This document shows positions 1,131 through 22,310 of a stretch of DNA of 22,310 bases, piece by piece. Within the stretch, counting starts at the first letter, position 1. Each line of letters starts with the position of its first letter. The position numbers and the translations under genes are program-made. The stretch spans positions 1 to 22,310 of the forward strand of contig JAUSPT010000067.1 of assembly GCA_030652805.1 (NCBI GenBank), given 5' to 3'. The notes beneath the pieces were generated by a model that was not told the DNA's origin, ran no database searches, and worked only from the letters and a program-made list of their open reading frames with translations. The stretch comes from a bacterium (GTDB lineage Bacteria; JAHJDO01).

Positions 1131-2459
1131 TTAAGTCGGGGAAGCTTTTTTAATAATAGAGAGCCAGTTTTTAATAGCGTTGTCATCAGGATTAATACTA
1201 TCAATAGAAGCAGGAGTATTATTAGCGAGTGATAGATGAGGTCTAAAGAAATTGTAATAAATAAAGAAGAGAGTAAAGTGAGCGACAGAGGCGTCAAAGT
1301 CTTTAAATCCGTGGTGAGATTTATAGGATTCATGAAGAGGCGACCAGAGTTTTTCGATCATGTTTTTAAAACAACGTCTGGGATGAGGATCATAGAGTCC
1401 GATAATAATATCATGAGAGAAATGAGTTTTAAGTACAAGGTTGGAGCAGGCAATGGCAGCAGGATAGAAAGGAGCGCCATCGGTAACGATCCGGACATTT
1501 ACGGAGGGGTCAAGAGCCCTAGCGTGGATAAGCTGAAAGAGATTAAAAGCAGCATTCCCGTTTCTTTTAGGAGAGAAGAAGAAAGCAATAACTTGCTTAG
1601 AAGCGGGATCAAGGGCGGCATAAAGATAATGATGTTTACCAAGAACATTGATATAGGTTTCGTCGATAACAATAGTAGAAGGAAGATTGATTTTGGAAGC
1701 AAAGAAAAATTTGTAGAGGATAGAAGCGGTAGAATACTTCCAGTTGTCGATAGACTTATGAGAGATATTGATATTAAAGAGAGTTTTAAGAGCGATAACG
1801 ATAGAAGTAGAGGCGAGGTGAAGATTAATAGCGAAGAAAAGAGCGGTAGCGAGGATATGATGAGGGAGATGAATACGGGAGAGGGAGACAGAGTCGGGGC
1901 AGTTTTGGATAGGGAGTTTGTCCCCTACGAGGAAGAGTCTCCAAGTATATCTGGTATTATGTTTAAGTTTATGAGGGCATGCAGAGTTGATACATTTATA
2001 GACCACAAAAAAGGAACGTTCTTTTTTCCAGCTCAAGGCAAATCCACAAAAAGGACAGAAAAGAGACATATATTTTTGAGGTCTAATTTTTTTAGCAGCT
2101 TTTTTAACCTGTCTGCCGCAGAGAGAGCAGAGAAAAGAATATCCATTGGCATAGATGTATTGATAAGGTGCGCCGCAATCAGGGCAATGAAAAGACTTAA
2201 GGATATTTGCGCGATGTTTGATAGGCTTAACTTTGATGCTGGCTTTTTGCCGAGCAGATATAATTTGCTGCCAGGTTAGATTGGATTTGCCGGGTTTGGT
2301 AAGCATAGGTGGTGGAATATCAGGCTCGGATTTAGCAGAAGGATGGGAATAGTTAGGGTTCTTTTTGAAATAAGGAACCTGGACTAAGAGAAGCAATTTA
2401 AAGAAAGAAGTAACTAAAAGGTAGAAAGATTTGGTTAAAGCAGATTTAACTTTATGCAT
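1131..2459 (-). CDS. DDE transposase (IS6/IS240-like rve fold) with N-terminal zinc ribbons
   Basis: A 442-residue protein starting at the ATG 2459-2457. AAGGAGG lies at 2472-2466, six bases upstream, which decides against the longer TTG start at 2486. After a hydrophobic N-terminus come two Cys-rich zinc-ribbon motifs: CPDC..C.LC at about 92-114 and CPFC..C....C at about 135-161. A helix-turn-helix-like segment sits near 215-245. The catalytic core has D266 (VIDETYI), D327 (VTDGAPFY) and E369 (NMIEKLW), with the family's YLYAALD and GFKDF blocks. The triad is intact, so it is probably functional. Known role: DDE transposases cut and join element ends. The coding strand is strongly pyrimidine-rich at third positions, unlike neighbouring genes. 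IS6/IS240 placement is by motif only. Confidence 0.82.
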   Translation of the reverse strand: MHKVKSALTKSFYLLVTSFFKLLLLVQVPYFKKNPNYSHPSAKSEPDIPPPMLTKPGKSNLTWQQIISARQKASIKVKPIKHRANILKSFHCPDCGAPYQYIYANGYSFLCSLCGRQVKKAAKKIRPQKYMSLFCPFCGFALSWKKERSFFVVYKCINSACPHKLKHNTRYTWRLFLVGDKLPIQNCPDSVSLSRIHLPHHILATALFFAINLHLASTSIVIALKTLFNINISHKSIDNWKYSTASILYKFFFASKINLPSTIVIDETYINVLGKHHYLYAALDPASKQVIAFFFSPKRNGNAAFNLFQLIHARALDPSVNVRIVTDGAPFYPAAIACSNLVLKTHFSHDIIIGLYDPHPRRCFKNMIEKLWSPLHESYKSHHGFKDFDASVAHFTLFFIYYNFFRPHLSLANNTPASIDSINPDDNAIKNWLSIIKKASPT

Positions 2460-2461
2460 GT

Positions 2462-2540
2462 TTGGCCTCCTTGTGGTTAACCCCAAGGATATAATCCAAG
2501 GGGAGGTTGATAATAAATGTTATAACCTCTTGGAGGCCAA
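2462..2540 (-). promoter_or_regulatory. Inverted repeat sequestering the transposase ribosome-binding site, overlapping its likely promoter
   Basis: TTGGCCTCC (2462-2470) is a perfect 9-bp inverted partner of GGAGGCCAA (2532-2540). The stem extends imperfectly through GGTTA/TAACC. An inner hairpin is CCCC-TT-GGAT / ATCC-TT-GGGG. On minus-strand RNA the 3' arm contains the AAGGAGG of the transposase. A TATAAC-like -10 (plus 2519-2524) lies next to the 5' arm, so RNA starting near 2512 would lack that arm and leave the site free. Read-through RNA from outside would fold and hide it. Such protection is known for IS10 and IS50; applying it here is inference. Confidence 0.5.
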
Positions 2541-20648: not shown

Positions 20649-20684
20649 ATGATGATAAGGTTATCCAGAAGACTGAACGGATTT
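20649..20684 (+). pseudogene. 5' end of a prepilin-like gene, split by the IS110-family element
   Basis: GAGGGG (20636-20641) precedes ATG 20649 by seven bases. The frame encodes MMIRLSRRLNGF, a basic leader ending in the Gly-Phe that in prepilin-type proteins precedes TLIELLVV. At this exact point the sequence runs into the element's end (ATCTTTGTAGGGACAT). The continuation, FTLIELLVV, is found on the other side of the element at 22167. The intact gene would follow the kelch gene by about 30 bases in the same direction. Confidence 0.72.
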
Positions 20685-20699
20685 ATCTTTGTAGGGACA

Positions 20700-20705
20700 T
20701 GTCAA
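20700..20705 (-). promoter_or_regulatory. Outward-facing -35 box (TTGACA) at the IS left end
   Basis: On the minus strand TTGACA lies immediately inside the left inverted repeat and points out of the element. In several IS families that form circles, joining the ends puts an outward -35 from one end next to a -10 at the other, driving the transposase only in the circle. A fair -10 (AAGAAT, just outside the right inverted repeat on the minus strand) would fall at about the right spacing. The -10 match and junction are inferred. Confidence 0.35.
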
Positions 20706-20966
20706 ATGAAGAATATATTTTTATCTATTTATCATAAGTACTCCTTTCTTTTCTCTGGCAAAAAACCTCTAAGGGTGTATTCATCTTTTCGCGATCACCG
20801 CCAGACCGAGAACTTATTCCCAGCCACTTATAGGCGGGCCAGCATGAAAGTCCTATTCACGTCGTCTGAGCCGCATTCACACTCTCGAGTTCATCCTGTG
20901 GTATCCACAGGAGACATCACAAACCATTGTCGCGGTCATCAGTACGACGTATATCACCAGAGGCGA
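20701..20966 (-). ncRNA. Candidate bridge/seekRNA region of the IS110-family element
   Basis: Non-coding DNA between the transposase stop and the left end, where IS1111-type elements encode their guide RNA. It contains a strong hairpin, TCCTGTGG (20894-20901), 3-base loop, CCACAGGA (20905-20912), and several GC-rich palindromic stretches. The plus-strand stretch at about 20855-20870 (TTCACGTCGTCTGAG) matches the target side TTCACGCTTATTGAG at both ends (6 plus 4 bases) but not in the middle, so a guide role is only a suggestion. Exact RNA ends cannot be seen. Confidence 0.35.
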
Positions 20967-22082
20967 CTAACAGGCGATAGCCAAGCCATTATGGAGCTTG
21001 GCTATGAGTCTGGCCTGCCTAGCCTTGTTAGCATTCCTGTTATGGTTAGTAGATCCTCCTCTTCTAAAAGCTTCTCTTGTTTGATGCATCTTCCAAAGCC
21101 ATCTAATAAGTTTCTGAGCAATAGCAACTTTAGCTTTTCCTCTAATCTTAGTGGAGCTGAGAATACGATTATACATAGCCTTATAGGCTGGGTCAGAACG
21201 AATCAAGGTATTAGCAGCCTCACACAATACCCATCTAAGAGTAGCAGAGCCAGCTTTGGAGATATTGCTGCTAGAGACTTTTCCAGCGCTTTCTTCAGTT
21301 CTTTGAGTAAGTCCGGTATAGGAAGCAATAGCATCGGCAGAATAGAACCTCGGAAAGCCGGCTACTTCTGCAAGGATGATAGCTGCAGTGATATCAGCAA
21401 TACCGGGGACAGTTTTAAGCAGCGCAACATCTTCCTTAAACTGTTCCATATCGCAAAATTCAAGAATATGACGTCTGATAACAATTCGTTGTCTTTCCAG
21501 ATGTTCAATAGATTCAAGAAATTGAGAGAAAGAAAACAAAGCGTTTGGAGAGAGCTTATCTCCACGAGCAAGAAGCCATTTCTGGGCAGAATCTCCTGTG
21601 ATACTTCCGGGTCCAGGGAAATTATGCTGCATGAGTATCCAGCGCATTCTGATTTTGAGAGTAGACATCATATGAGTGATACTATGCCAGTGTCTTCCAA
21701 GTCTTCTGAGTTCTCTGGTGGTTTTATCAGGGACAAAAGCCTGTGGGACTTCGTTCCTGAAAACAAGAAGAGAGATAAATTTGGCGTCGATTTTATCGGT
21801 TTTGGCATGCCTTTTGCCGGCTCTATATCTAAGTTCAACAGCATCGGCAAGCATGAGTTTGTCAACTCTTGTCTCAAGGAGTTCCCAGAGCCATTCATAC
21901 ATGCCAACCGACTCGATGGCGCAATGAACAGGTGTGGGAAGGAGGGAAAATAAATGAGTAATTTTATTAACGCATTTCGTAGACATAGATGTAACGTTAG
22001 TAAGGTACCCACTACTATCTCTAACACCGATAGTGAGGCTAGCTTTGTGAAGGTCGATACCAACAGAGGTTTTTGGGGTCAT
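20967..22082 (-). CDS. IS110-family DEDD transposase
   Basis: A 371-residue protein starting at ATG 22082-22080, with AAGGAG (22095-22090) seven bases upstream. The N-terminal RuvC-like DEDD domain has D10 (VGIDLHK), E57 ([10 protein letters not shown]), and D96 and D99 ([10 protein letters not shown]). After a coiled linker the C-terminal Transposase_20 domain has [32 protein letters not shown] and [11 protein letters not shown], with the catalytic serine in the GSA block. The motifs are complete, so the enzyme is probably functional. Family knowledge: IS110 transposases excise a circular intermediate and insert at sites chosen by an RNA encoded in the element. The large plus-strand frame over this gene is an antisense shadow. 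Confidence 0.93.
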
Positions 22083-22112
22083 TTTGTTTCTCCTTTTAAA
22101 TTAATTGTTAAT

Positions 22113-22128
22113 TGGTTCAAAGGAACCA
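22113..22128. other. Small hairpin near the IS right end
   Basis: TGGTTC (22113-22118) and GAACCA (22123-22128) form a 6-bp stem with loop AAAG. It lies in the short leader between the right inverted repeat and the transposase ribosome-binding site. It could be part of the transposase leader or a recognition structure of the element end. Confidence 0.4.
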
Positions 22129-22151
22129 CCCGCAGTGTAACACACCACTTA

Positions 22152-22310
22152 ATGTCCCTACATTCTTTCACGCTTATTGAGTTGCTTGTTGTAATAGCCG
22201 TTATAGCCCTGCTTGCATCACTCTTACTACCAGCTTTGGCTAAAGCAAGAGAAATGGCAAGGAGCATAAAATGTATGAGTAACCTGAAGCAGATTGGACT
22301 AATAGCAACT
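22152..22310 (+). pseudogene. 3' part of the split prepilin-like gene, continuing past the window
   Basis: The frame reads MSLHS and then [30 protein letters not shown] and [13 protein letters not shown] to the edge. This is the prepilin-type N-terminal helix of type II/IV pseudopilins, in the form found in the large DUF1559-like (H-X9-DG) families of PVC bacteria. The natural leader (MMIRLSRRLNG) is 1.5 kb away on the other side of the element. The ATG at 22152 and the MSLH codons come from the element's inverted repeat, so a chimeric protein could be made, but there is no clear ribosome-binding site and the usual Gly before Phe is now Ser. The protein continues beyond 22310. Confidence 0.75.

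Follow-up and report, generated by a model that had tools for sequence, protein, structure and literature searches.

An IS1111-type element in a prepilin gene, and a related clade whose predicted guide RNAs match the prepilin signature codons

The window analyzed here, a 22,310-nt stretch of bacterial DNA (contig C67, JAUSPT010000067.1), ends in a prepilin gene that is split by an IS110-family element (positions 20649 to 22310, up to the contig end). The element belongs to an IS1111-type, RNA-guided clade whose guide, with a probability that we put at about 0.9, is directed at the stretch of DNA that codes for the prepilin cleavage/methylation signature ([G/A]F|TLIELL). Across the clade, insertions recur at these codons in one register and one orientation, a common RNA anatomy is predicted, and the guides covary with both target and donor sequences.

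Recurrent insertion at the prepilin signature

The left flank encodes the leader MMIRLSRRLNG behind a ribosome-binding-site-like GAGGGGA, in line with the good site claimed in the original prediction, and coding is broken after the TT at 20682-20683. The right flank restarts at the TT at 22167-22168, so that the insertion point lies inside the Phe+1 codon (TT|C) of an N_methyl/DUF1559 prepilin gene, with TT as the core. The break had been placed at the GF/TLIELL codons, which is correct within two bases; the exact position is internal to the Phe codon. The main parts are as follows.

20649..20683, plus strand: prepilin gene, 5' part; MMIRLSRRLNG and the TT of the Phe codon, ATG at 20649
22167..22310, plus strand: prepilin gene, 3' part; FTLIELLVV..., ended by the contig end and continued by contig C40 (100% over 141 bp)
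20684..22168, minus strand: IS1111-type element including one TT core copy, 1485 bp; the other TT copy is at 20682-20683, and second copies have the same ends
Predicted prepilin target sequence of the element: GGATTCACGCTTATTGAG

Joining the window flanks at the TT core restores an in-frame gene, with gaagactgaacggaTTcacgcttattgagt encoding RRLNGFTLIE. An uninterrupted paralogue on contig C66 of the same genome is 99% identical to the right flank over 144 bp and 89% identical in the leader. The intact related locus that the original prediction called for, with leader and signature contiguous, is therefore present. The N_methyl and DUF1559 domains were detected in a composite pilin body, for which we joined the leader from C66 to the body from C40. 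Window positions 22167-22310, C66:1-144 and C40:8057-8197 are contig ends that share one 141- to 144-bp prepilin repeat (99-100%); the assembly breaks here because of near-identical prepilin paralogues, three contigs ending in the same repeat.

A transposase scan of 84,980 species genomes was combined with searches of whole genomes, namely those of the hosts and samples from Planctomycetota and Verrucomicrobiota. Since loci were retrieved by transposase similarity alone, the flank pattern is not a selection effect. In total, 23 genomes gave 32 distinct clade insertions whose right flank is readable, and 31 of them (22 genomes) lie at prepilin codons [G/A]F|T[LM][IVM]E, with the transposase always antisense. 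Recurrence at the GFTLIELL codons in the same orientation and register, the outcome proposed as a check on the original prediction, was therefore obtained. For other IS110 elements, which are more distant, 14 sites were examined, one of them on contig C22 of the window genome, and not one is in a prepilin gene. The element on C22 (positions 22798-23754) is a 23%-identical IS110-type transposase with a long upstream non-coding region.

Genomes examined carry 15 to 94 N_methyl matches each, which bears out the claim that the prepilin family exists in many copies per genome. For an insertion to hit the right codon in one of 15-94 prepilin genes in 2-7 Mb by chance, we estimate a probability of the order of 1e-5. 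The reading frame is kept in the reconstructed empty sites, and TT is present on either side in 19 of 21.

Individual genomes repeat the pattern. In the window genome, a further copy, whose protein is 97% identical, interrupts a different prepilin at LNG|FTLIEL and is split over contigs C72 and C66 (we take the two halves to be one copy). A 37%-identical element occupies KKG|FTLIEL of yet another. In a congener, the element halves lie at RAG| and |FTLIEL, and a 39%-identical element in another phylum (genome G061) lies at G|FTLVEL. In one genome, G386, two subclades account for six insertions, no two of which share a prepilin gene. Two further loci show the leader side only and fit the same site (MRKG| and MAINRTAAQSG|).

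Prepilin insertions were found in the phylum of the window, in Planctomycetota (most relatives), in some Verrucomicrobiota and in one doubtful bin. The clade members group together in the tree at 100/100 support, apart from 10 outgroup transposases without prepilin flanks. A 3.8-kb contig of G061 (JAUYMQ010000537.1) is labeled Deltaproteobacteria and carries an element of the Planctomycetota subclade, possibly through a binning error. A scan of viral contigs returned no relatives of the transposase, and a plasmid search at 1e-40 likewise returned none, the nearest plasmid-borne IS110 being about 30% identical. Sampling of 387 Verrucomicrobiota genomes revealed no clade member beyond one already known.

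Such a distribution could in principle reflect a single ancestral prepilin insertion whose interrupted gene then spread by duplication or horizontal transfer, as the similar right flanks would allow given that the signature is conserved, but this is hardly tenable: leaders vary by site (MMIRLSRRLNG, MTKCALTPKRPG, MRGRAAVSNG, MSHIYLRQERRSFDHG and others), right-flank codon choice varies, the six insertions of two subclades in G386 are in different genes, and the site is common to transposases that are only 35-39% identical.

Element anatomy and the predicted guide RNA

The element encodes a transposase and, downstream of it, a long non-coding region in which the guide RNA is predicted.

20967..22082, minus strand: DEDD/Ser transposase, 371 aa; PF01548, PF02371, NF033542, IS621 fold, aligned catalytic residues
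20690..20700: subterminal inverted repeat TGTAGGGACAT, at the right end with respect to the transposase gene (tnp)
22152..22162: subterminal inverted repeat ATGTCCCTACA, at the left end with respect to tnp
20856..20953, minus strand: predicted target-binding stem-internal loop, from the single-sequence fold of the window and the consensus fold of eight relatives
20922..20928, minus strand: predicted left target guide AAUGGUU (CAGGAUU in two sister copies)
20876..20884, minus strand: predicted right target guide GAGUGUGAA, complementary, with wobble, to prepilin coding strand TTCACRCTY
20780..20788, minus strand: predicted donor guide AAAGAUGAA in the second loop, matching the element's own right end AAAGATAAA

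The transposase combines a DEDD RuvC-like domain (DEDD_Tnp_IS110, PF01548) with a Transposase_20 domain (PF02371) bearing the catalytic Ser, the features that define the IS110 superfamily, and carries the NCBIfam label "IS110 family RNA-guided transposase" (NF033542). Its AlphaFold model (mean predicted local distance difference test score, 86) best matches IS621 and ISCro4, with template modeling scores of about 0.6-0.7. The catalytic residues align with those of IS621, and D9, E56, D95, D98 and S264 are invariant in 11 relatives.

With the seekRNA-guided IS1111 family (ISEc11, ISKpn4, ISPst6, ISPa11 and IS4321/IS5075), the element shares subterminal inverted repeats and a long non-coding region downstream of tnp (PMC11187229). 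The repeats are 11 bp in the window (11-13 bp is usual and 7-17 bp reported) and exact over 7-11 bp in relatives with both ends readable (in one, L024, by inspection); the non-coding region spans 266 bp downstream versus 84 bp upstream in the window. Also shared are a top-strand guide that precedes the bottom-strand guide, a single orientation and one target per element group (PMC11187229). Unlike in that family, the terminal extensions are not 7 bp on the left and 3 bp on the right: the window and the main clade have 6 bp (core included) and 6 bp before the core, although end conventions may differ. Placing the ends by the 7/3-bp rule gave a frame-shifted empty site, and the TT core, which also fits other elements, was preferred. 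The motif GL-P----S(t)G of the C-terminal domain is matched by GLTPRVFQSG in L024; in the window, its SG reads SA. We write "IS1111-type" because of these two differences and because the tree contained no named IS1111 transposase. The window element is a member of the IS110 superfamily with a predicted mode of action like that of IS1111; neither family nor mechanism is new.

Two other readings of the ends were rejected. A target GGATTTACG with the C supplied by the element does not agree with the base after TT, which varies among insertions of one subclade, and an element end that supplies a new start codon and leader is not conserved in relatives and lacks a ribosome-binding site. Just inside the right end, a -35-like TTGACA points outwards (20700-20705 in the window; also in L031, L034, L035, L111, L112 and L115). 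A circle junction could there create a tnp promoter.

When eight main-clade downstream regions were aligned and folded, the result was a long stem that leads through an internal loop to an apical stem, followed by a second stem-loop. Both sides have changed with pairing kept in 22 of the 61 pairs. The internal loop was located by folding, without use of the target. Its 5' strand carries CCNGGCTTCATT, which is gene-sense and corresponds to the left target half plus core, and its 3' strand carries ACAGCGTGAATT, antisense to the right target half plus core.

In the window, the right guide matches its target at 7.5 of 8 positions, with wobble at half weight. Over the elements, right guides match permuted targets less well than their own (p=0.001; 0.03 when the divergent locus L113, described below, is left out). 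Permutation p-values are optimistic here, because the elements are related and the loops outside the main clade were assigned partly by eye. Left guides follow Gly versus Ala at residue -1 (Fisher p=0.014) and codon -1 (p=0.001-0.004). Donor guides and right ends vary together over the clade (AGATG, AGCTG, AGTTG and AGCGG), with 130 of 140 positions matching versus 109 for permuted pairs.

Besides these limits, several points weigh against a guide set to the signature. Tests of the left guide are weak when taken over 5 nt (p=0.06-0.09), and CAGGAUU of the sister copies matches GGA-TT better than AAUGGUU of the window does. Guide complementarity of single elements was in no case significant against shuffled sequence; this test was replaced by a comparison of fixed-position loops between elements. 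Two insertions, L042 and L046, are without the expected left core, and the donor guide of L110 fails to match its own end. In L110 (G1412:C138), the right end CATAGCTA stands against donor guide AGAGATG, unlike in its closest relatives, and the element is possibly a hybrid with a swapped end.

The one readable insertion outside prepilin genes (1/32), L113 of genome G1206, is nested in the clade by the tree. Its target, CGCTGGTTCCAGTTCAGC, is read in frame as MSSPAKPPRRRW|FQFSVAEILVLV (RRRW|FQFSVAE), and is flanked on either side by the TT core, which reads AA in the sense of the transposase. The right guide GAACUGGAA equals the new target half at 9 of 9 positions, and the left guide contains CUGGUU, equal to the other half at 6 of 6, in a register one base off that of the other elements. 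The motif TGGTTYCARTTYWS occurs three times in G1206 and not at all in four other genomes. Two of these three sites and an adjacent gene encode proteins in which a hydrophobic stretch comes after RRRWFQF or KRWFQF, and the L113 target is therefore again an N-terminal signature common to paralogues. L113 is a natural retargeting, in which both guides changed along with the site.

The internal-loop position, the guide-target covariation and this retargeted member support the earlier suggestion of a guide matched to the shared signature. The fold and the covariation support a bridge- or seekRNA-like guide RNA as the predicted product of the 3' non-coding region; this predicted RNA has no match in Rfam.

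Proposed mechanism and competing explanations

In the mechanism that we propose, a bridge-like RNA, presumably expressed from the 3' non-coding region, would pair with both target halves around the TT core in the Phe+1 codon, and its second loop would pair with an end of the element itself. The DEDD/Ser recombinase would then insert a circular element in a single orientation. RNA expression, the circular intermediate and recombination at the core are modeled on IS621 and ISEc11 (PMC11208160, PMC11187229).

The target is conserved by protein function. With 15-94 signature-bearing prepilin genes per genome, it is also multicopy, and therefore any one copy is probably dispensable; prepilin redundancy would keep the cost of insertion low. 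Each struck gene is probably inactivated, as the element provides no conserved restoration of the leader. The element may still be active today. Its left end restores CACGGT-TT beside the pilin codons, so that an occupied site may remain a target. At one locus, L039 (JAJZNX010000155.1), the right end (CCCCTACAGAGATA-AA) adjoins another left end (ATCG-TGTAGGGG), an arrangement suggestive of two head-to-tail copies.

Taken jointly, these features tentatively suggest an RNA-guided lineage of several phyla that has settled on a protein-coding signature. Guide wobble at degenerate codon positions would tolerate synonymous change, the element's own end would restore a Gly(-1)-TT half-site and keep the occupied site a target (with possible tandem copies, as at L039), and retargeting would take the element to a different N-terminal signature that paralogues have in common (RRRWFQF).

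Alternatively, the transposase protein might pick the target, or homology of the element ends to the target might do so, with the RNA guides not decisive. The CACGGT-TT restored by main-clade ends does resemble the target half GGN-TT. However, the L113 transposase lies near that of L111 in the tree, and yet its new site matches the changed guides in both halves. Together with the guide-target covariation and the precedents of ISEc11, ISXne4 and IS621 (PMC11187229, PMC11208160), this makes such an explanation unlikely.

It is very improbable that the element has been domesticated as a reversible pilin switch, with insertion as the off state and precise excision as the on state. The insertion does split the leader from the mature part at a precisely restorable point, and there is a parallel in Moraxella Piv, a DEDD recombinase related to the IS110/IS1111 transposases (PMC11187229) whose substrates, to judge by the title of a reference in PMC11208160, are type 4 pilin gene sequences. 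The targets of the present clade, however, are scattered paralogues and no fixed locus, one member lies in a non-pilin gene, and the start codon is not consistently restored by the element. Piv, unlike the window element, is grouped with IS492/IS621 and acts by inverting one fixed segment of DNA (PMC11187229), whereas the window clade consists of mobile elements with their own predicted guide RNA and many dispersed prepilin genes as targets. Piv is the nearest parallel for a DEDD recombinase on pilin genes, but an invertase from another branch.

Relation to known systems

Guidance by an RNA encoded in the element, the explanation preferred here, links the clade to the IS621/IS110 group. The transposase fold and catalytic residues are shared with that group, as are a target-binding internal loop, two guides meeting at a core dinucleotide and a donor-binding loop (PMC11208160), the last three as predictions here. 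The clade differs from IS621 in that the transposases are about 20% identical, the predicted guide RNA lies 3' of tnp rather than 5', and the core is TT rather than CT.

Targets named for IS1111 elements are attC sites, REP sequences, transposon ends and short linear sites (PMC11187229), and those named for IS1111/IS110 in the papers examined are mostly non-coding repeats (REP, attC, transposon ends). The window clade, in contrast, targets a protein-coding signature, which divergent members have kept over phyla. The open-access papers searched contained no description of prepilin genes as targets of IS110/IS1111 elements, although an earlier one in subscription papers, preprints or ISfinder is possible; the seekRNA paper makes no mention of pilin (PMC11187229). 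The novelty is that a whole lineage, across phyla, has its target in the conserved coding signature of a gene family with many copies.

By tracking a coding signature, such a lineage ties the evolution of guide RNAs to codon degeneracy and to the size of gene families. The clade also offers a natural set of guide-target pairs, one of them retargeted, from recombinases far from IS621, which is useful for working out programming rules, and it explains why prepilin genes are repeatedly disrupted in these genomes. Elsewhere in the window, a second transposase (1131-2486, minus strand) is DDE/IS240-like (PF13610).
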